From Methanothrix sp. (GTDB lineage Archaea; Halobacteriota; Methanosarcinia; Methanotrichales; Methanotrichaceae), in assembly GCF_030055635.1 (NCBI RefSeq), contig NZ_JASFYM010000019.1, positions 1-37,424 of the forward strand: a stretch of 37,424 bases of DNA, read 5' to 3'. The notes beneath the pieces were generated by a model. It searched no databases. It was not told where the DNA came from and saw only the letters and a program-made list of their open reading frames with translations. This document shows positions 1,827 through 12,740 of this stretch, piece after piece (position 1 is the first letter of the stretch; each line of letters begins with the position of its first letter). Made by a program: the position numbers and the translations under genes.

Positions 1827-4568
1827 ATGTTTCCCGAGGACGAGTACCAACTGGAATTCTTCAGGGCAGAGGGTTTTGTTCGCAGGATGTGCGAGAGCTG
1901 CGGAGGCAGGTTCTGGACCAGGGATGCCTCTAGGAGGACATGCGGAGATCCGCCGTGCGATCCGTACTCATTCATAGGCACTCCTGTTTTCAAAGAGATG
2001 GATCTGGACTCGATGCGCGAGCACTACCTGGGGTTCTTCGAGGCGCACGGGCACACGAGGGTGCCGAGGTATCCTGTCGTCGCGAGATGGAGGGATGACA
2101 TCTACCTCACCATAGCATCGATAGCCGACTTCCAGCCGTTCGTCACATCAGGCCAGGTCCCGCCGCCGGCCAATCCCCTCACGATCTCCCAGCCGTGCAT
2201 CAGGCTGGACGATCTCGATTCCGTGGGACGGAGCGGGAGGCACCTCACCACATTTGAGATGATGGCGCATCACGTCTTCAACACAAAGGAGCACGAGATC
2301 TACTGGAAGGACAGGACTGTGGAGCTTTGCGACGAGCTCCTCCTCGGGCTGGGCGTGGATCCTGAGAGCATCACATACAAGGAATCTCCATGGGCCGGAG
2401 GCGGAAACGCGGGCCCGAGCCTTGAGGTACTCGTCGGGGGGCTGGAGCTGGCGACCCTGGTCTTCATGAACCTTAGGCTTGATCCCAGGGGAGAGTATGT
2501 CATAAAGGGCGAGCGCTACAGCCGCATGGACAACTACATCGTTGATACAGGATATGGACTCGAGAGGTTCGTCTGGGCCTCCAGGGGATCTCCAACAATA
2601 TACGACGCTGTCTTCCCCGATGTGGTGAAATCCCTTTCAGAGATGGCAGGTGTGGAGCACGATCTTCATGATCCGGAGTACGCGGAGATATTCGCGAGAA
2701 ATGCCAGGCTCGCAGGCATGATCGATCTCGGAGAGGCCTCGCTGAGGGATCTGAGAAAGAGGATCGCAGAGAGCATAAACACCACTCCTGACAGGCTCGA
2801 GAGCATAATGGCGCCGATGGAGAGGATCTATGCGATCGCGGATCACACCAGATGCCTGGCATACATGCTCGGCGATGGTATAATTCCATCTAACGTCAAG
2901 GCCGGCTACCTCGCGAGGCTCGTGATTCGAAGGACCCTGAGAATGATGAGGGATCTGAAGCTGGAGATCCCGCTGTCTGAGATCGTCGGGATGCAGATAT
3001 CCAGGCTCGACTACCCGGACTGGAGAGAGCGGATGGAGACGATCTCAGAGATCCTGTCGCTGGAGGAGCAGAGGTATTCTGAGACCCTGGAGAAGGGGAG
3101 CCGGATGGTCTCGAAGATCGCATCGCATTACTCAAAGAAGGGCGGCCGGATACCCCTCACAGAGCTTGTATCTCTGTACGATACTCACGGTATTCCTCCT
3201 GAGATCGCGAAGGAGACCGCCGGTGCGCTCGGCGTGGATGTGGAGCTTCCGGATAACTTCTACTCCATAGTAGCATCGACACACAGCAGGGCGGAGCAGA
3301 GTGAGGTCGAGACGCGCTCGCCGCCGTTCGAGAAAACCGAGCGCATCTTCTATTACAGACCATTCGATCAGGAGTTCGAGGCAACTGTACTTGGCATATT
3401 CGAGGGCTGTGTTGTCCTCGACAGAACACTCTTCTACCCAGAGGGCGGAGGCCAGCCCGCTGATCATGGAGTCCTGGAGAGAGACGGTCAGGTGTTCAAC
3501 GTCACCGATGTGCAGATGATCGATGGGGTTGTCCTGCATCGGGTGGAGCCCGAGGGGCTCTCCCAGGGCGACAGGGTCACCGGAAGGATCGATATGCGCA
3601 GGAGAATGGCGCATGCGAGGCACCACACAGCCACGCACATCATCAATGACTCGGCGAAGCGTGTTCTGGGAAGACACGTCTGGCAGGCTGGCGCTCAGAA
3701 GAGCGAGGACAGGGCAAGGCTGGACATATCCCACTACAGGAGGATCTCCGAGGATGAGCTGAAGGCGATAGAGCTCGAGGCGAACCGGCGCGTGATGGAG
3801 ATGATTCCTGTGATCACTGAATTCATGCCGCGCGAGGAGGCTGAGAGGCTCTTCGGCTTCCAGCTCTACCAGGGAGGCGTGCCGCCGGGCAGGGAGATCC
3901 GCGTTGTGAGGGTTGGATCTGACATAGAGGCCTGCGCCGGCACACATGTCACGAACACCGGAATGATCGGCCCGATCAAGATACTAAGGACAGAGAGGGT
4001 CCAGGATGGCGTGGAGCGGATAGAGTTCGCAGCGGGAGAGGCAGCCGTCCAGAGAATCCAGGAGAGGGACGATATACTCGCGGAGGCAGCATCGGTTCTG
4101 AGGGTGCCGGTGGAGCAGCTTCCCAGGACAGTGGCCAGGTTCTTCGAGGAGTGGAAGGAGCAGCAGAAGGAGATAGAGCATCTGAAAGAGGAGATCGCAA
4201 GACTCCGGATACTCACGCTCTCAGCAGAGGCTGTGGATGTGAATGGTGTGAGGATCGTCGCCAGGGATCTTGAAGAGGCAGACGGCGAGACCCTGCTCAA
4301 GGCCGCGACGATGCTCTCAGAGAGCGATATGGTCGCGATACTCGGCGGTGCCAGCGGCGGCGCGGCCAAGATCGTCGTGTCTGTGGGAAGGTCCGGGGTC
4401 GAGAGGGGGCTGAACGCTGCTGATATCGTGAGGGCTGCTGCAAAATACATCGGCGGAGGAGGCGGCGGAAAGCCTGATCTTGCGCAGGGGGGAGGACCGA
4501 ACATCGGAGGGCTGAAGGCGGCAATCGATGCAGGGCTGAGCGCTGCCCGGAGGATGCTCCACGGCTAG
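1827..4568 (+). CDS. alaS: alanyl-tRNA synthetase, archaeal type
   Basis: The 913-residue enzyme charges tRNA-Ala in the cytoplasm. It has the archaeal N-terminal extension starting EDEYQLEFF, followed by a Cys-rich CESCGGRFW...TCGDPPC segment. The class II catalytic core follows (about residues 60-350, with RLDDLDSVGRSGRHLT and the GYGLERFVW helix). The editing domain has HARHHTATHI and CAGTHV, whose HxxxH and CxxxH residues form the zinc site that removes misacylated Ser and Gly. The C-terminal C-Ala domain carries GGGGGGKPDLAQGGG. Length matches the archaeal family. ATG 1827 is used because the archaeal consensus starts with this segment. A free-standing editing protein, AlaX, lies at 32552-33250. 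Confidence 0.98.
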   Translation: MFPEDEYQLEFFRAEGFVRRMCESCGGRFWTRDASRRTCGDPPCDPYSFIGTPVFKEMDLDSMREHYLGFFEAHGHTRVPRYPVVARWRDDIYLTIASIADFQPFVTSGQVPPPANPLTISQPCIRLDDLDSVGRSGRHLTTFEMMAHHVFNTKEHEIYWKDRTVELCDELLLGLGVDPESITYKESPWAGGGNAGPSLEVLVGGLELATLVFMNLRLDPRGEYVIKGERYSRMDNYIVDTGYGLERFVWASRGSPTIYDAVFPDVVKSLSEMAGVEHDLHDPEYAEIFARNARLAGMIDLGEASLRDLRKRIAESINTTPDRLESIMAPMERIYAIADHTRCLAYMLGDGIIPSNVKAGYLARLVIRRTLRMMRDLKLEIPLSEIVGMQISRLDYPDWRERMETISEILSLEEQRYSETLEKGSRMVSKIASHYSKKGGRIPLTELVSLYDTHGIPPEIAKETAGALGVDVELPDNFYSIVASTHSRAEQSEVETRSPPFEKTERIFYYRPFDQEFEATVLGIFEGCVVLDRTLFYPEGGGQPADHGVLERDGQVFNVTDVQMIDGVVLHRVEPEGLSQGDRVTGRIDMRRRMAHARHHTATHIINDSAKRVLGRHVWQAGAQKSEDRARLDISHYRRISEDELKAIELEANRRVMEMIPVITEFMPREEAERLFGFQLYQGGVPPGREIRVVRVGSDIEACAGTHVTNTGMIGPIKILRTERVQDGVERIEFAAGEAAVQRIQERDDILAEAASVLRVPVEQLPRTVARFFEEWKEQQKEIEHLKEEIARLRILTLSAEAVDVNGVRIVARDLEEADGETLLKAATMLSESDMVAILGGASGGAAKIVVSVGRSGVERGLNAADIVRAAAKYIGGGGGGKPDLAQGGGPNIGGLKAAIDAGLSAARRMLHG

Positions 4569-4599: not shown

Positions 4600-4692
4600 C
4601 AGATTCTGCGGAGATGCTCTGAGGAATCTGCATGTTATCACACTTGCTCGGGGAGGTGAGCAGGGCGCAGATCGTGTGCGCCCGGTTTCATG
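4600..4692 (+). promoter_or_regulatory. structured leader of map: two hairpins and a distant Shine-Dalgarno
   Basis: The 121 bases between alaS and map contain two inverted repeats. The first is CAGATTC (4600-4606) with GAATCTG (4624-4630), with an inner GAG/CTC pair; it could end the alaS transcript. The second is GGGCGCA (4663-4669) with TGCGCCC (4677-4683), a perfect 7-bp stem with a 7-base loop. The only strong Shine-Dalgarno sequence, GGAGGTGA at 4652-4659, lies about 30 bases before ATG 4690. It is separated from it by exactly this second hairpin. An in-frame TGA at 4657 rules out an upstream start. If the hairpin folds, the remaining spacing is about nine bases, a normal distance. Confidence 0.55.
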
Positions 4693-5565
4693 GATGATGA
4701 GGTGCTGAAAAAATACAGAGCTGCAGGCAGGATACTTGCAGATGTCATCAGCAAGGCCTCTGCGAGAATAGACGTCGGCGTGTCTCTTCTCGAGGTGGCA
4801 GATTACGTGGAGAGCAGCATCCGGCAGCTTGGCGGGGAGCCTGCATTCCCGTGCAACATATCACGGGATCGCGAGGCAGCTCATTACACACCAAAACCGG
4901 ATGATGATGCGGTCTTCGGCGAGGAGATGGTAAAGCTCGACATAGGGGTGCATGTCGATGGCTACATCGCGGATGCAGCTGTTACTGTCGACCTGAGCGG
5001 CCACCCGGATCTTGTGGATGCCTCCAGGGCGGCGCTGGATGCGGCTCTCGAGCTGGTCGCACCTGGGGTGAGCACGTGTGAGCTCGGCAGGGCCATAGAG
5101 TCAGCGATAGAGGGCTACGGATTCAGGCCGGTCTCAAACCTGACAGGCCATGGTCTATCGAGATTCAACGCGCACACAGAGCCGACCGTTCCGAACAGGT
5201 CTTGCAAATCGGGCGTGGAGCTCAGGCCTGGTGATGTGATCGCGATAGAGCCTTTTGCGACGAACGGCTCGGGGAGGATATCAGATTCCCCAGTCGTCGA
5301 GATATTCGGCTTCACATCCCGCAGGCCCGTGAGGGACAGGCGGGCGAGGGCGCTGCTCGCTGAGATCGAGACGAGGTTCAACGGGCTGCCTTTCGCCCGC
5401 CGCTGGCTTATGGGGGAGAGCGTGGATTATTCTCTCCAGAGACTGATCCGTGCCGGTGCGGTTCACACATATCCTGTGCTCTGGGAGATCGAGGGCGCTA
5501 TGGTCTCGCAGGCGGAGCACACTGTGATTGTGACAGAGAGCGGATGCGAGGTAATAACAAGGTAG
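4690..5565 (+). CDS. map: methionine aminopeptidase, type II
   Basis: The 291-residue cytoplasmic enzyme removes the initiator Met from new proteins. It has the pita-bread fold and the five metal ligands of the family: VKLDIGVHVDGYIADAAVT supplies the two Asp ligands, GHGLSRFNAH the His, AIEPFAT a Glu and SQAEHTVIV the last Glu. The helical insertion near residues 190-240 and the overall length fit the archaeal type II family. The gene follows alaS in the same direction and has the unusual structured leader described separately. The minus-strand gene downstream ends only two bases after it, so the two genes converge. Confidence 0.96.
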   Translation: MDDEVLKKYRAAGRILADVISKASARIDVGVSLLEVADYVESSIRQLGGEPAFPCNISRDREAAHYTPKPDDDAVFGEEMVKLDIGVHVDGYIADAAVTVDLSGHPDLVDASRAALDAALELVAPGVSTCELGRAIESAIEGYGFRPVSNLTGHGLSRFNAHTEPTVPNRSCKSGVELRPGDVIAIEPFATNGSGRISDSPVVEIFGFTSRRPVRDRRARALLAEIETRFNGLPFARRWLMGESVDYSLQRLIRAGAVHTYPVLWEIEGAMVSQAEHTVIVTESGCEVITR

Positions 5566-7879: not shown

Positions 7880-9559
7880 ATGGCGAATCGCATGCTTTTG
7901 ACTGCACTGGGGCTTGGCCCGAAGGAGACGAAATACGCTCTGGAGAACAGAACCTGGAAATCCTCTCTGTCTCCGGTGGCTCTGTACAATCTGCTTCCGG
8001 AAGACGGGCGGTTTGAGAGTGTGCTGGCCCTCTGCACGGAGGAGGTTCTTGAAAAGACATTTCCAATACTAGAGCAGGAGCTGCCTGTAAGGTGTGAGCC
8101 CGTGTGTGTGCCGCATGGCGTAAGCTCTGGTGATCTTCAGGCAACTGTGCATAACATACTGGAGAAGATACCACCTAAGACCAAGCTGACGCTCGATGTG
8201 ACTCACGGGTTCAGGCATTATCCGTTCCTCTTCTTTGTTGCTTGTCTTTATTTGATGGCACTGAAGGACGTTGAGATCCATAAGGTCTGGTACGGACGGC
8301 TGGATGCAAAGAACCCTGATGGTGCAGCACCATTTATCGATCTGAGCATGCTCCTTGATATGGTTGAGTGGTTCCGTGTCGTTCAGTCATTCAGGGACAT
8401 GAGCAACCCGAAGGCGCTGGCGGATATGCTGCTTGCATATGGAATGGATGAGATAAAGCCGGCCAGGAACATATCCCCTGATGCTAAAAAGAAGTACAAC
8501 GCGGTCTCCAGCGCTGCAAAGGATTTCGCAGAGCTGTTCGGCATGGGTCTCCCGTTGGAGCTTGGCATGGCTTCAGCAGATCTGCAGAGGCGGATAGAAG
8601 AGCTGCGCAGGGTGGGAGATATTTCGTCGATAAAAATCCCCCTTGCGAATGAGTTGCTGCTGGAGATAGAAAAGGCAGCAGAGCGCTTCAGGCTGCCAGA
8701 AAGCAAGGAGAAGAAAGATCTCGTTCTAGATCTTGAGGAGATCCACAGGCAGGCGAAGCTGATAGATACATACTTCGAGGCGGGTTATTATAACAACGCT
8801 ATCGGGCTGATCAGAGAGCTGATCATAAGTAGGCTGATGCTTGCAGATGATGAAAAGAGCTGGCTTGACATATCTCAGCGGAGGGATACCGAACGGCGTA
8901 TTGGATCCCTTATGGATTACAGCAAAAAGAACAGCGCAGCTCTCACAGATGACAGGAAGATGCTTGCGGGCATCTGGAGTTTCATCGTCGATGCCAGAAA
9001 CAAACTGCACCACCATGGAATGACAGAGGGTGGTGTCAAGCAAATCAAGATCCCAGAGTGGTGGGACAAGTTCAAGCAACGCCTTGATGACAATTCTTTC
9101 TGGGATTGCGGTTTCGGCGGAGGCTCTGGAAGGCTTCTGATCTCTGCACTGGGCCTTCACCCCGGATTTCTGTACACTGCTCTGAGACAGGTGAATCCAG
9201 AGGTATGCCTGGTGGTTGCATCAAATGAAACTGTGGGCGGATTGGAGGAGCTCACAAGAACAGCTGGTTACAGTGGCGACCTCGAGATTGAGGTTATGAA
9301 TGCATATTCGTTCAACGGTATAAAAAATATCGTGGATAAATTTGAGGGGCGTATTATCGGATTCGATGAGGTTGTGTGCAATCTGACCGGTGGAACAGCA
9401 GCCATGCAGTATGCTGTCATCCAGTTTGCGAGGAGGGCAGAGCGCCTGGGAAGAAATGTCAGATGGATCGCAGTCATCGATAATCGTTTGCCAGATGAGC
9501 AGAAGCTCGACCCCTACTTTGAGGGGGAGGTGGTCTTTTTGGAGGATGCCGGAATATGA
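7880..9559 (+). CDS. CARF-HEPN-CARF fusion, type III CRISPR ancillary effector (TM1812/Csx2-like)
   Basis: The 559-residue protein has three recognisable parts. Residues 1-165 match the TM1812-like (TIGR02221, Csx2) CARF domain: LLTALGLGPKE at the N-terminus, TLDVTHGFRHYP at 104-115 and KVWYGRLDA after it. Residues about 290-400 carry the HEPN RNase motif Rx4-6H as RNKLHHHG (373-380), preceded by a long helical region. Residues 418-559 form a second Rossmann-like CARF domain that starts LLISALGLHPG and has NLTGGTAAM at 501-509, closer to the Card1 type. Such effectors bind cyclic oligoadenylate and cut RNA. The last base of the gene overlaps cmr1 (ATGA). ATG 7892 is an alternative start. No signal peptide is present. 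Confidence 0.88.
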   Translation: MANRMLLTALGLGPKETKYALENRTWKSSLSPVALYNLLPEDGRFESVLALCTEEVLEKTFPILEQELPVRCEPVCVPHGVSSGDLQATVHNILEKIPPKTKLTLDVTHGFRHYPFLFFVACLYLMALKDVEIHKVWYGRLDAKNPDGAAPFIDLSMLLDMVEWFRVVQSFRDMSNPKALADMLLAYGMDEIKPARNISPDAKKKYNAVSSAAKDFAELFGMGLPLELGMASADLQRRIEELRRVGDISSIKIPLANELLLEIEKAAERFRLPESKEKKDLVLDLEEIHRQAKLIDTYFEAGYYNNAIGLIRELIISRLMLADDEKSWLDISQRRDTERRIGSLMDYSKKNSAALTDDRKMLAGIWSFIVDARNKLHHHGMTEGGVKQIKIPEWWDKFKQRLDDNSFWDCGFGGGSGRLLISALGLHPGFLYTALRQVNPEVCLVVASNETVGGLEELTRTAGYSGDLEIEVMNAYSFNGIKNIVDKFEGRIIGFDEVVCNLTGGTAAMQYAVIQFARRAERLGRNVRWIAVIDNRLPDEQKLDPYFEGEVVFLEDAGI

Positions 9560-10773
9560 TTGAGGCGAGGTTCACTATCGTCACTCCGCTCTTCATGGGC
9601 GGGGCGGATCCTAAGGTGCCGGAGCTGCGCGTGCCGGGAATAAAGGGCGCCCTCAGGTTCTGGTGGCGCGCTCTGGCATGGAGCTGGTGCGGAGGAGATC
9701 TGAGCAGAATCCGCGATCTCGAGGGGCAGATCTTCGGGAGCACGAAGAACGGGCAGTCCAGGGTGATCATGGATCTATGGGGAGCAAATGCAGAGCCTGC
9801 AAATGATCGCTTTTTTGAAAAATGCCAAGGGAAAAAGCGCCAAAAGTGCCAGGGTTTAATTTACCTGGGATACGGGCCAATTGACAGGGGCGAGCTGACC
9901 CGCGGTTATCTTAAAACGCCCCTTGATGCGACTCTTAGGATAAGAATTCGGCCGACGAGGAGCAATAAAGCTCCGGAACATTATGATGAATCAGAAATCA
10001 AAGATCAGATATCGAAGGCCCTGATCGCCATGGGGCTCTTTGGGGGTCTCGGAGCAAGATCAAGGAGGGGGTTCGGATCGTTCAATCTGACCGAGCTGAA
10101 TGTGGATGGCAAAACAGACTTCAAATGCCCTGGGGGTTTGAAGGAGCTCGAAGCCTCAATAAAAAGGTTCTTTGAAGATCTGGATCTATACAACGGGCTG
10201 CCGGAATACACCGCTTTCAGCTCGGATACAGAGGTATGTCTTTTTGAAAATACTAGTGCTGACTCACTGGAACTGCTGGACATGGTTGGCAGGGCGATGA
10301 TGGCGTACCGTCTGGGCACCAAGAAGCGAAGCTGGAAAGCATTTGTGAAATCCGGCGGATTCGAGAAGGACACAGAACTCGCTAAGAGAGCTCTGAACAG
10401 CAAGGTAAGCGAACACCCGAGGCGACTTTTCTTCGGTCTTCCCCACAACTATCACTTCAAGAATTCGAAAAAGAACCTCGAGATCAGAGGCAAAAACCAC
10501 GATCGAAGGGCAAGCCCTTTGCTGATACATGTCCAGAGGCTGGGCACAGAGTATGCAGCGGTTGCAGCACTCATGCCTGCGAGGTTCCTGCCTGAGGGGG
10601 AGAAGATTCTGATGAGGGCCACAGAAGAAAAGGAAGAGACTGGAGATGCGAGGGTTCCGGTGGTAGGACATCCCAGAAGTTCTCCTAAATCGTGCGTTGA
10701 GCTCGACAGGAATGAGGCAGAGGAGTTCACTGTGATCAAGGATTTCCTGAAGTCCTGGCAGAAGGTGATCTGA
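9556..10773 (+). CDS. cmr1: type III-B CRISPR RAMP protein Cmr1
   Basis: The 405-residue protein has the Cmr1 signature near the N-terminus: FTIVTPLFMGGAD, then ELRVPGIKGALRFWWRAL. A glycine-rich GLFGGLGARSRRGFGSF loop follows near residue 170, as in RAMP folds. Cmr1 sits at the 3' end of the crRNA in the Cmr complex and helps capture target RNA. Start ATG 9556 overlaps the stop of the effector gene, and the cmr2 start overlaps its own stop, so the genes are translationally coupled. Length is within the usual range for the family. Confidence 0.95.
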   Translation: MIEARFTIVTPLFMGGADPKVPELRVPGIKGALRFWWRALAWSWCGGDLSRIRDLEGQIFGSTKNGQSRVIMDLWGANAEPANDRFFEKCQGKKRQKCQGLIYLGYGPIDRGELTRGYLKTPLDATLRIRIRPTRSNKAPEHYDESEIKDQISKALIAMGLFGGLGARSRRGFGSFNLTELNVDGKTDFKCPGGLKELEASIKRFFEDLDLYNGLPEYTAFSSDTEVCLFENTSADSLELLDMVGRAMMAYRLGTKKRSWKAFVKSGGFEKDTELAKRALNSKVSEHPRRLFFGLPHNYHFKNSKKNLEIRGKNHDRRASPLLIHVQRLGTEYAAVAALMPARFLPEGEKILMRATEEKEETGDARVPVVGHPRSSPKSCVELDRNEAEEFTVIKDFLKSWQKVI

Positions 10774-12740
10774 TGAGTGCAGAGGATAACATGATCAACT
10801 TCACCATCGGTCCTGTCCAGGGGTTCATCGGGCAGGCGCGTCGTACCAGGGACCTCTGGAGCGGCTCATTTCTTCTCTCATACCTCTCCGGCTGCGCCAT
10901 GGCCGAGATAAGGAGAATCGGGGGCAGCATAATAGTTCCGGATGTCGAAGAGGATTGTCTGCTCAGATGGATCGAGAAGAAGGGCGATGGAACACCACCC
11001 AGGATCGGCACGCTTCCCAACAGGTTCAGGGCATCTGCAGAAGATCCTGCTGTTGCTGCCAGAAGCGCCGCGGAGAGGGTGAGGGGTGCGTGGAAGGAGA
11101 TCGCAGACTGCGTCTGGAGGAGATACGTGGAGGATGTTGCGGATATCGGAAAGAGCACTCAGGAGATCTGGAGGAGACAGGTGGATAGCTTCTGGGAGAT
11201 CCACTGGACGATCGGCGCGATGGAGGGCATGGAGGCGCGCAAGAACTGGAGGTTCTACAGGGACTGGGCGGATGGGCGGCCGACCATCGAGGGGGGAGAC
11301 CACTGCACGATCATGAGCGACTGGCAGGAGATCTCAGGATATGTGCGCGCAACCGATGGGATGAAGCAGGAAGCTTTCTGGAGAAAGTTCTGCAAGAACA
11401 CAGGCGGCATGGATCTGAGAAGCGACGAGCGGCTCTGTGCGATCGCACTGATCAAGAGGATGTTTCCCTCCGTCTCAAAGGATGCGATCGGCTGGGATGT
11501 GAACGCGGACACCTGGCCCTCAACGCTCTACGTGGCGGCGATACCCTGGTTCAGATCTGTGATTGCATCGAATCGGGATGTTGCGAACAGCTACGCGGAA
11601 AAGGCGAGGAGCTTCGCGAAGCACATACAGAGAAAGGGTGTTGCGGAACAGATCTTCAAAAAGAGCGATCCCTTCCTTGAGATCGATGCGAACTTCTACT
11701 ACTCCACGCCTCTGAAGGATTCGAAAAGGACGCCTCTTGATGGAACCACCGAAAAGGGAGACGAGCCGGAGGATGTGAGGGAAAGACGCCAGGAGCTCGA
11801 AAATTACCTGGATGAGCTTTACAGGAGAAACGGAAGACCATCTCCCTTCTACGCGATGCTCCTCATGGACGGGGACAGCATGGGGAGGCTGATCAGGGAG
11901 AGGGGAGAGGCGGTCAGCAGGGCTCTGGCAGCGTTCGCAAAAGGCGTTGATGGTGTTGTGCGTCAAAACCTCGGAGTCCTGGTATACGCAGGAGGCGATG
12001 ATGTTCTCGCGATGCTGCCTGTTGAGTGCGCCATGAGCTGCGCGCACAAACTCTCCGTTAAATTCACACGATCGTTCAAGGATTACGGGATGGATGCGAC
12101 CATATCCGCAGGCCTGGTTTTTGCGAGCTACCGCGTGCCGCTTCGCTCTGTGATTCGGGAGGCGCATGTGATTCTCGATGACATCGCGAAGGACGAGAAC
12201 GGCAGGGGAAGCATAGCTGTCAGCGTCCTCAAGGGCAGTGGCAGGTACTGCAGGTGGGTCAGCTCCTGGAGCGGTGCTGTTTCCTCGGAGACCAACGAGG
12301 TCCTTCTGGAGAGGCTGGCGAGGGTGTTTAGAGAGAAGGAAGAAAATGCATCGGGCTCTTCATCATCACCTAGTTCCACAACGTCCTCACAGGCGACTTT
12401 TAAGGAAAAACACGCATCGAGCTCTTTCTTCTACAAATCCAGGGAGCTGCTGCTCATGCTATCCGGCGAGCAGCAGTGGCGCCCTGGGATGTTCTTCGAT
12501 CTCTCCAGTCTGGAGGGGTTGGATATAGGGGAGCTAATGCTGGCTGAGTACCTGAATGCGCTGGAGCACAGGTCTGAGATAACCGAGGAGGTCCGCGCCA
12601 CAGCAAGGAGGTATGTGGGAGATCTTCTTTCGGTGAGCAGGAGGAACCCAGGGCCTGAGTATGGAAGGGATGGCGGTGAGATCTGCGCGGATGGAATGCT
12701 GCTTGTGAAGTTCCTATCACAGAAGGAGGTCTCGGAGTGA
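10773..12740 (+). CDS. cmr2: type III-B Cas10/Cmr2, cyclic-oligoadenylate synthase without an HD domain
   Basis: The 655-residue protein is the large subunit of the Cmr complex. It begins directly with INFTIGPVQGFIGQARRTRD, the start of the first palm-associated region. The N-terminal HD nuclease found in many Cas10 proteins is absent. Palm 1 includes FYAMLLMDGDSMGRLI (about residues 360-375). Palm 2 has the intact active site GGDD at 407-410, within VLVYAGGDDVLAML. The protein should therefore make cyclic oligoadenylate from ATP on target RNA binding but not cut ssDNA through an HD site. A low-complexity Ser/Thr stretch (SGSSSSPSSTTSS) lies near residue 530. Neighbouring CARF proteins are the expected receivers of the signal. 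Confidence 0.96.
   Translation: MSAEDNMINFTIGPVQGFIGQARRTRDLWSGSFLLSYLSGCAMAEIRRIGGSIIVPDVEEDCLLRWIEKKGDGTPPRIGTLPNRFRASAEDPAVAARSAAERVRGAWKEIADCVWRRYVEDVADIGKSTQEIWRRQVDSFWEIHWTIGAMEGMEARKNWRFYRDWADGRPTIEGGDHCTIMSDWQEISGYVRATDGMKQEAFWRKFCKNTGGMDLRSDERLCAIALIKRMFPSVSKDAIGWDVNADTWPSTLYVAAIPWFRSVIASNRDVANSYAEKARSFAKHIQRKGVAEQIFKKSDPFLEIDANFYYSTPLKDSKRTPLDGTTEKGDEPEDVRERRQELENYLDELYRRNGRPSPFYAMLLMDGDSMGRLIRERGEAVSRALAAFAKGVDGVVRQNLGVLVYAGGDDVLAMLPVECAMSCAHKLSVKFTRSFKDYGMDATISAGLVFASYRVPLRSVIREAHVILDDIAKDENGRGSIAVSVLKGSGRYCRWVSSWSGAVSSETNEVLLERLARVFREKEENASGSSSSPSSTTSSQATFKEKHASSSFFYKSRELLLMLSGEQQWRPGMFFDLSSLEGLDIGELMLAEYLNALEHRSEITEEVRATARRYVGDLLSVSRRNPGPEYGRDGGEICADGMLLVKFLSQKEVSE

Follow-up and report, generated by a model that had tools for sequence, protein, structure and literature searches.

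Phage T4 provides the closest described systems. According to the consulted excerpt of PMC3014915, a structure between the Shine-Dalgarno sequence (SD) and the AUG of T4 gene 38 reduces their distance from 22 to 5 nt, while in gene 25 the SD lies 27 nt from the AUG in linear sequence and 11 nt away once the intervening RNA is folded. The gene 25 arrangement is reported in the same excerpt to occur in close T-even phages and to be absent from more distant relatives (PMC3014915). The proven cases that we encountered are T4 phage genes, and the statement in a preliminary description of the present locus, that T4 genes are known in which a hairpin restores spacing, is borne out by genes 38 and 25. 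For archaea, a review of translation initiation discusses SD-led and leaderless mRNAs, and its consulted portion mentions no such structure (PMC7531240). An archaeal split ribosome-binding site was not found in the literature searched, which does not establish its absence from print.

The window, i.e. the whole 37,424-nucleotide stretch of DNA that was analysed, is contig C19 of a 1.76 Mb Methanothrix genome. On its forward strand alaS (1827-4568) is followed after 121 nt by map (4690-5565, ATG at 4690-4692), which encodes a type II methionyl aminopeptidase (TIGR00501, 333.5 bits, cut-off 222.65). The leader of map consists, all on the forward strand, of a distant SD, GGAGGTGA (4652-4659), a 5' spacer GCA (4660-4662), the 5' arm of a stem, GGGCGCA (4663-4669), a 7-nt loop, GATCGTG (4670-4676), the 3' arm TGCGCCC (4677-4683) and a 3' spacer GGTTTC (4684-4689) that directly precedes the start codon. 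Read from the sequence, the hairpin is located wholly between the SD and the start codon. It takes up 21 nt of the 30-nt gap, leaving 3 + 6 = 9 nt. The preliminary description had proposed a perfect 7-bp stem at this place and a spacing of about nine bases upon folding; the two arms can be read directly, and the folded spacing is 9 nt in the window and 7-9 nt across six map leaders. No Rfam 15 family matched the window at its gathering score. Elsewhere in the window, a gene for a CARF-HEPN-CARF protein (7880-9559; PADLOC CARF2--CARF_HEPN_CARF, E 2.8e-227) adjoins those of Cmr1 (9556-10773) and Cas10/Cmr2 (10773-12740), a CRISPR locus of type III-B that includes a two-CARF effector.

A 16S sequence gave no match in the genome's own assembly; in the congener G046 the 16S 3' end reads GGATCACCTCCTA, to which GGAGGTGA is fully complementary. 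As for the start codon, no ATG, GTG or TTG is found in the map frame between the SD and position 4690, and the frame is closed by a TGA at 4657-4659, inside the SD, so that a search for an in-frame upstream start came back empty. Among 24 map loci read from the 40 other-genus genomes with a match, 23 carry an ATG at the aligned position, which supports the annotated start codon; in the remaining one (L019) the ATG lies a few codons further on.

By its anatomy, the leader may be assigned to the split kind of ribosome-binding site. We consider it fairly probable that it is a split, or accommodated, site working like those of T4 genes 38 and 25. The anti-SD of the 30S subunit would pair with GGAGGUGA at 4652-4659, the GC-rich hairpin at 4663-4683 would stay folded and be set aside, and the start codon of map, now effectively about 9 nt from the SD, would enter the P site. 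We infer that initiation takes place with the hairpin folded in the mRNA, that the distant SD is used and that translation of map is thereby raised. The SD, stem, spacers and start codon hold their positions, pairing and conservation across the genus and recur at two more genes. The T4-like reading suggested in the preliminary description is supported by anatomy, by conservation in all five congeners and by recurrence, while its functional part is inferred and the leaders of other genera are unrelated.

In the source genome, SD words peak at 3, 4 and 5 nt in AGGAGGTGAT register (18, 9 and 6 cases among 557 ORFs), with 0 to 4 cases at each of the other distances listed. The map SD, at 29 nt in this register, therefore lies far beyond normal use, as the preliminary description had stated for its 30-base distance. 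The folded spacing, 8 in register, is still longer than the usual 3-5 nt. SD use in this genome is itself modest, given that the count over -3 to 8 nt (47) barely exceeds that of the highest of four scrambled words (43, 34, 28 and 12). Shuffling of the 30-nt gap yielded an equally good stem in 1.2% of dinucleotide shuffles (p = 0.012) and 2.7% of mononucleotide shuffles, and the fold z-score for 161 nt is -1.9. In 837 kb of the source genome, the complete layout was counted 6 times for the real SD and 0-7 times for each of seven scrambled words; layout counts in one genome were consequently rejected as evidence. With such modest shuffle probabilities, z-score and chance-level counts, the layout pattern alone proves little, and the map stem by itself is weak evidence and only mildly unusual.

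Comparison within the genus carries more information. Six Methanothrix genomes were compared, the source genome included, and map is present in all six. Every one of them keeps GGAGGTGA unchanged, the 3-nt spacer, the stem, the 6-nt spacer and the ATGGA that begins map, the spacers being measured beside the common 7-bp stem. One extra base in the loop of G046 (8 nt) lengthens the linear gap to 31 nt and leaves both spacers as they are. Across the six stems, pairing is kept in 41 of 42 cells. Three pairs are invariant and three have changed in one partner, giving G-U or U-G; at the innermost position four genomes have A-U, one has G-C and G042 has A.C. Identical columns amount to 11/60 just upstream, 24/43 from the SD to the start codon and 40/60 in the first codons. 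Loss of the stem in close relatives, named in the preliminary description as a finding that would speak against the idea, was not encountered, as 5/5 congeners retain it. Outside the genus, an SD-hairpin leader before map was seen in none of the 24 loci read, whose leaders are unrelated. Several of these have a near SD instead (e.g. L009, L010, L025 and L028), and by eye the product of the gene preceding map in other genera has an end resembling that of an Xaa-Pro peptidase.

The preliminary description had also pointed out a second inverted repeat just upstream and suggested that the region might act as a switch. The repeat exists (4600-4630), as does a weaker, alternative small hairpin around the SD (4645-4662); neither is kept across the genus, and the former is probably not part of the element. 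The switch idea found no support. The 4600-4630 hairpin is predicted in two of the six genomes (the window and L003), the pairing that encloses the SD differs or is missing elsewhere, and no conserved, mutually exclusive upstream pairing was found in the map leaders of the six genomes. An upstream CGCATC considered by eye as a partner of the 3' arm suits some genomes and not others.

Two further genes carry the same layout. The first encodes an AIR-synthase-like protein (AIRS; G000:C3:52281, minus strand, L089, with orthologs L090-L094) and was noticed among 100 listed of 143 pattern matches in the source genome. Its product matches PF00586/PF02769, all NCBIfam matches falling under their cut-offs. 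The leader reads GGAGGTGA-GC-GGTGCAGG-atcatga-CCTGCGCC-CATCGT-ATG and is kept in 6/6 genomes, with 43/43 cells paired over five distinct rows; the stem has 9 bp in four genomes and 8 bp in two, and the linear gap differs by one base. Other in-frame starts were considered and set aside, namely a codon in the loop, which is ATG in four of six genomes, ATA in one and GTG in one, and an ATG overlapping the SD, which is in frame in three, out of frame in two and absent in one. The other gene encodes a DrrA-type ABC ATPase (G000:C4:90027, minus strand, L184, with orthologs L185-L189; TIGR01188 drrA, above cut-off). Here the arms GGCGCR and TGCGCC, forming 6 bp, are kept in all six genomes and are preceded by GGTGAT in all six, the distance between the arms being 10, 11, 11, 14, 14 and 11 nt. 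Four genomes allow a seventh pair where the other two have G.G, and the stem extends to 10 bp in L189. A weaker SD precedes the ABC stem: three genomes have GGAGGTGAT, one has GAGGTGAT and two have only GGTGAT. SD and spacer lengths are conserved along with the stem in map and AIRS.

The three leaders can also be connected by covariance models. Model R1, built from map alone, recovers the AIRS leader in 6/6 genomes (E 0.10-4.1) and the ABC leader, which first came to light through this model, in 4/6 (E 0.28-1.8), the two remaining ABC leaders scoring E 0.69 and 2.6 in a smaller search. Model R2, built from AIRS alone, recovers map in 4/6 genomes (E 0.21-7.4) and ABC in 3/6. Taken singly, these cross-matches are weak, and at times another place in the same genome scores better; they carry force since the orthologous sites come back in several genomes and each time lie between SD and start codon. 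For model R3, 15 leaders were used; run on 50 genomes with stricter filters, it gave convincing matches only for the three genes in the genus Methanothrix. Another 21 listed matches outside the genus (best E 0.001, in G016) appeared by eye to be coding or unrelated and were dropped, and peroxiredoxin-like matches (L168, L172 and L175) were likewise judged coding by eye.

A scan of conserved start codons was carried out on 838 non-overlapping ORFs of the source genome and 823 of G046, from sampled parts of each, which gave 317 ortholog pairs defined as reciprocal best hits at no less than 60% identity. The layout occurs at the same conserved start in both genomes for 5 genes with the real SD and for 1, 0, 0, 0, 0, 1 and 0 genes with scrambled words. 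The five are map, the ABC ATPase and three apparently coding or internal cases; AIRS was not in the portion of G046 that was sampled. Each genome may therefore contain a handful of such genes. C4:87895 and C5:39512 were set aside, their candidate start being a GTG 16 and 26 codons inside an open frame, and C7:22944 was rejected because it falls within the coding end of the gene upstream of cfbE, where the layout is probably a coincidence. As a separate observation, GGAGGTGAC-ATG at G000:C7:22944 (minus strand) opens an 8-codon Arg-rich frame that ends at the candidate cfbE ATG and is identical in G046.

Changes in the stems of the three genes were scored by hand and without a tree, with a shared change counted once, over 7 pairs in map, 8 in AIRS and 6 in ABC, leaving out the ninth AIRS pair and the seventh ABC pair. 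All 12 substitutions are transitions, and they result in one broken cell, while random placement gives 7-11 broken cells on average. The probability of at most one broken cell is 0.011 if all changes are transitions, 0.0013 if 80% are and 0.00008 at 60%; transversions do occur in the map loop and spacers and in the AIRS loop. The preliminary description had proposed a search for covarying stem pairs in relatives. Compatible changes do keep the stem, but two-sided covariation is thin, with one such pair in map and two in AIRS, values reached by 192 and 125 of 500 shuffles, respectively. A joint alignment, A6, exceeds all 500 shuffles. We give it little weight: the three sites it combines are not homologous, the alignment was fitted to the structure, and 15 of the 18 leaders are in it, three having fallen under the cut.

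Folded alone, the gap gives a stable predicted hairpin at both 37 and 60 °C, with energies of -6.1 to -15.6 kcal/mol at 60 °C over the 18 leaders. Within 100 nt of context, the whole stem is part of the minimum-energy fold in 13/18 leaders at 37 °C and 13/18 at 60 °C, and 13 and 15 of the 18, respectively, reach a mean pair probability of 0.5 or more for this stem. The map stem of the window reaches a mean pair probability of 0.97 in 100 nt at both temperatures. Altogether four of the six map stems are present in the 100-nt fold, with high values in L004-L006, whereas other folds are predicted for the L003 and L007 leaders (mean stem pair probability 0.01-0.13 at both temperatures). The map SD is only partly free in the predicted folds (0.22-0.67 unpaired at 37 °C).

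The stem is absent from the 100-nt predicted fold in 5/18 leaders, which weakens the case for bridging and, together with the predicted partial pairing of the SD in many leaders, would also suit a hairpin GGCGCR...YGCGCC that is mainly the site of a trans-acting protein or a temperature sensor, with bridging being secondary. A regulatory hairpin recognised by a factor is the main rival, as the stems share sequence beyond what pairing needs: GGCGC/GCGCC is present in map, ABC and most AIRS leaders, and models built from one gene find the leaders of others, i.e. the shared stem sequence suffices. We nevertheless regard this explanation as improbable, considering that the loop differs in letters and length, that the three genes are functionally unrelated and that no alternative pairing is kept in the map leaders. 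A GC-rich stem predicted to be stable at 60 °C makes no obvious thermometer either.

A 7-bp inverted repeat in an intergenic region could equally be read as a DNA operator bound by a transcription factor. The repeat, however, falls between SD and ATG at all three genes, several G-C to G-T differences keep RNA pairing and break DNA symmetry, and the arms are not a fixed distance apart (7 or 8 nt in map, 10-14 nt in ABC), so that what is preserved is RNA pairing and not DNA symmetry; an operator is thus very unlikely. Equally remote is a distant SD that map does not use, serving instead a short upstream frame or being bypassed by a leaderless map mRNA with the stem as a by-product: an ATG at 4632 does open a 21-codon frame that overlaps the map start in the window, with a similar frame in L006, but elsewhere this frame is disrupted, by a stop within the SD (L003) or the loop (L005), by the missing ATG (L004) and by a stop or shift (L007), and an SD unchanged in all six genomes argues for its use by map.

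In archaea, transcription usually starts about 26 nt downstream of the TATA-like box. At AIRS and ABC, all 12 leaders have such a box with its centre about 23 nt upstream of the SD, matching 6-8 of 8 consensus positions. The AIRS and ABC mRNAs may accordingly begin at or just inside the SD, which would place the hairpin near the mRNA 5' end; part of the SD may be untranscribed at these two genes. At map no box recurs at a fixed position, the best candidates matching 5-6 of 8 positions at scattered locations. The map leader is therefore probably read from an alaS transcript or from an unrecognised promoter, and, alaS ending 121 nt upstream, the map hairpin is probably internal in its mRNA.

Outside the genus, no SD-hairpin was seen by eye at AIRS or ABC in 24 of the 41 AIRS and 24 of the 29 ABC genomes with a match. 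In other genera (L254-L301), an AT-rich box can be made out by eye about 25-30 nt ahead of the ATG at many AIRS loci and at the g8 ABC loci, which look like leaderless genes. A gain of the SD-hairpin leader inside the genus Methanothrix is possible, and the box position before the SD at AIRS and ABC agrees with insertion of a short new leader between the promoter and the coding sequence. A wider proposal, which we put forward as tentative and rather doubtful, is that a shared leader of roughly the form GGAGGTGA-(0 to 4 nt)-GGCGCR...YGCGCC-(5 to 7 nt)-AUG originated within one Methanothrix clade, where three unrelated genes acquired it, AIRS and perhaps ABC in exchange for an apparently leaderless start. 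Together the three would make up a small translational regulon that corresponds, in a cellular archaeon, to the T4 split site, and a trans-acting factor might recognise the element.

If a conserved set of such leaders does work as split ribosome-binding sites in cellular archaeal genes, archaeal 30S subunits, too, would accommodate an mRNA whose SD and start codon are separated by a folded hairpin, and some apparently SD-less genes would be explained. The six genomes and three genes, with 7 to 14 nt between the arms, provide a natural series for testing this.

Among known systems, the standby sites in structured 5' UTRs of E. coli, as presented in the consulted part of PMC3936740, are similar in that the ribosome accommodates a folded hairpin near its platform, but there the hairpin is located upstream of the SD and here between SD and start codon. 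T4 gene 38 shares with map a structure between SD and AUG that shortens the spacing, and differs in being a phage gene tested by mutation, as far as the excerpt of PMC3014915 reports. Gene 25, at the gene 26-25 junction, is similar in more respects: going by the same excerpt, it combines a far SD and an intervening hairpin with an intercistronic position and a distribution limited to close relatives. It is a phage gene whose arrangement was proven, as described there, by reporters and DMS probing, whereas map is a cellular archaeal gene whose leader is known from sequence. In contrast to gene 25, map goes from 30 to 9 nt, and three genes here carry similar stems.
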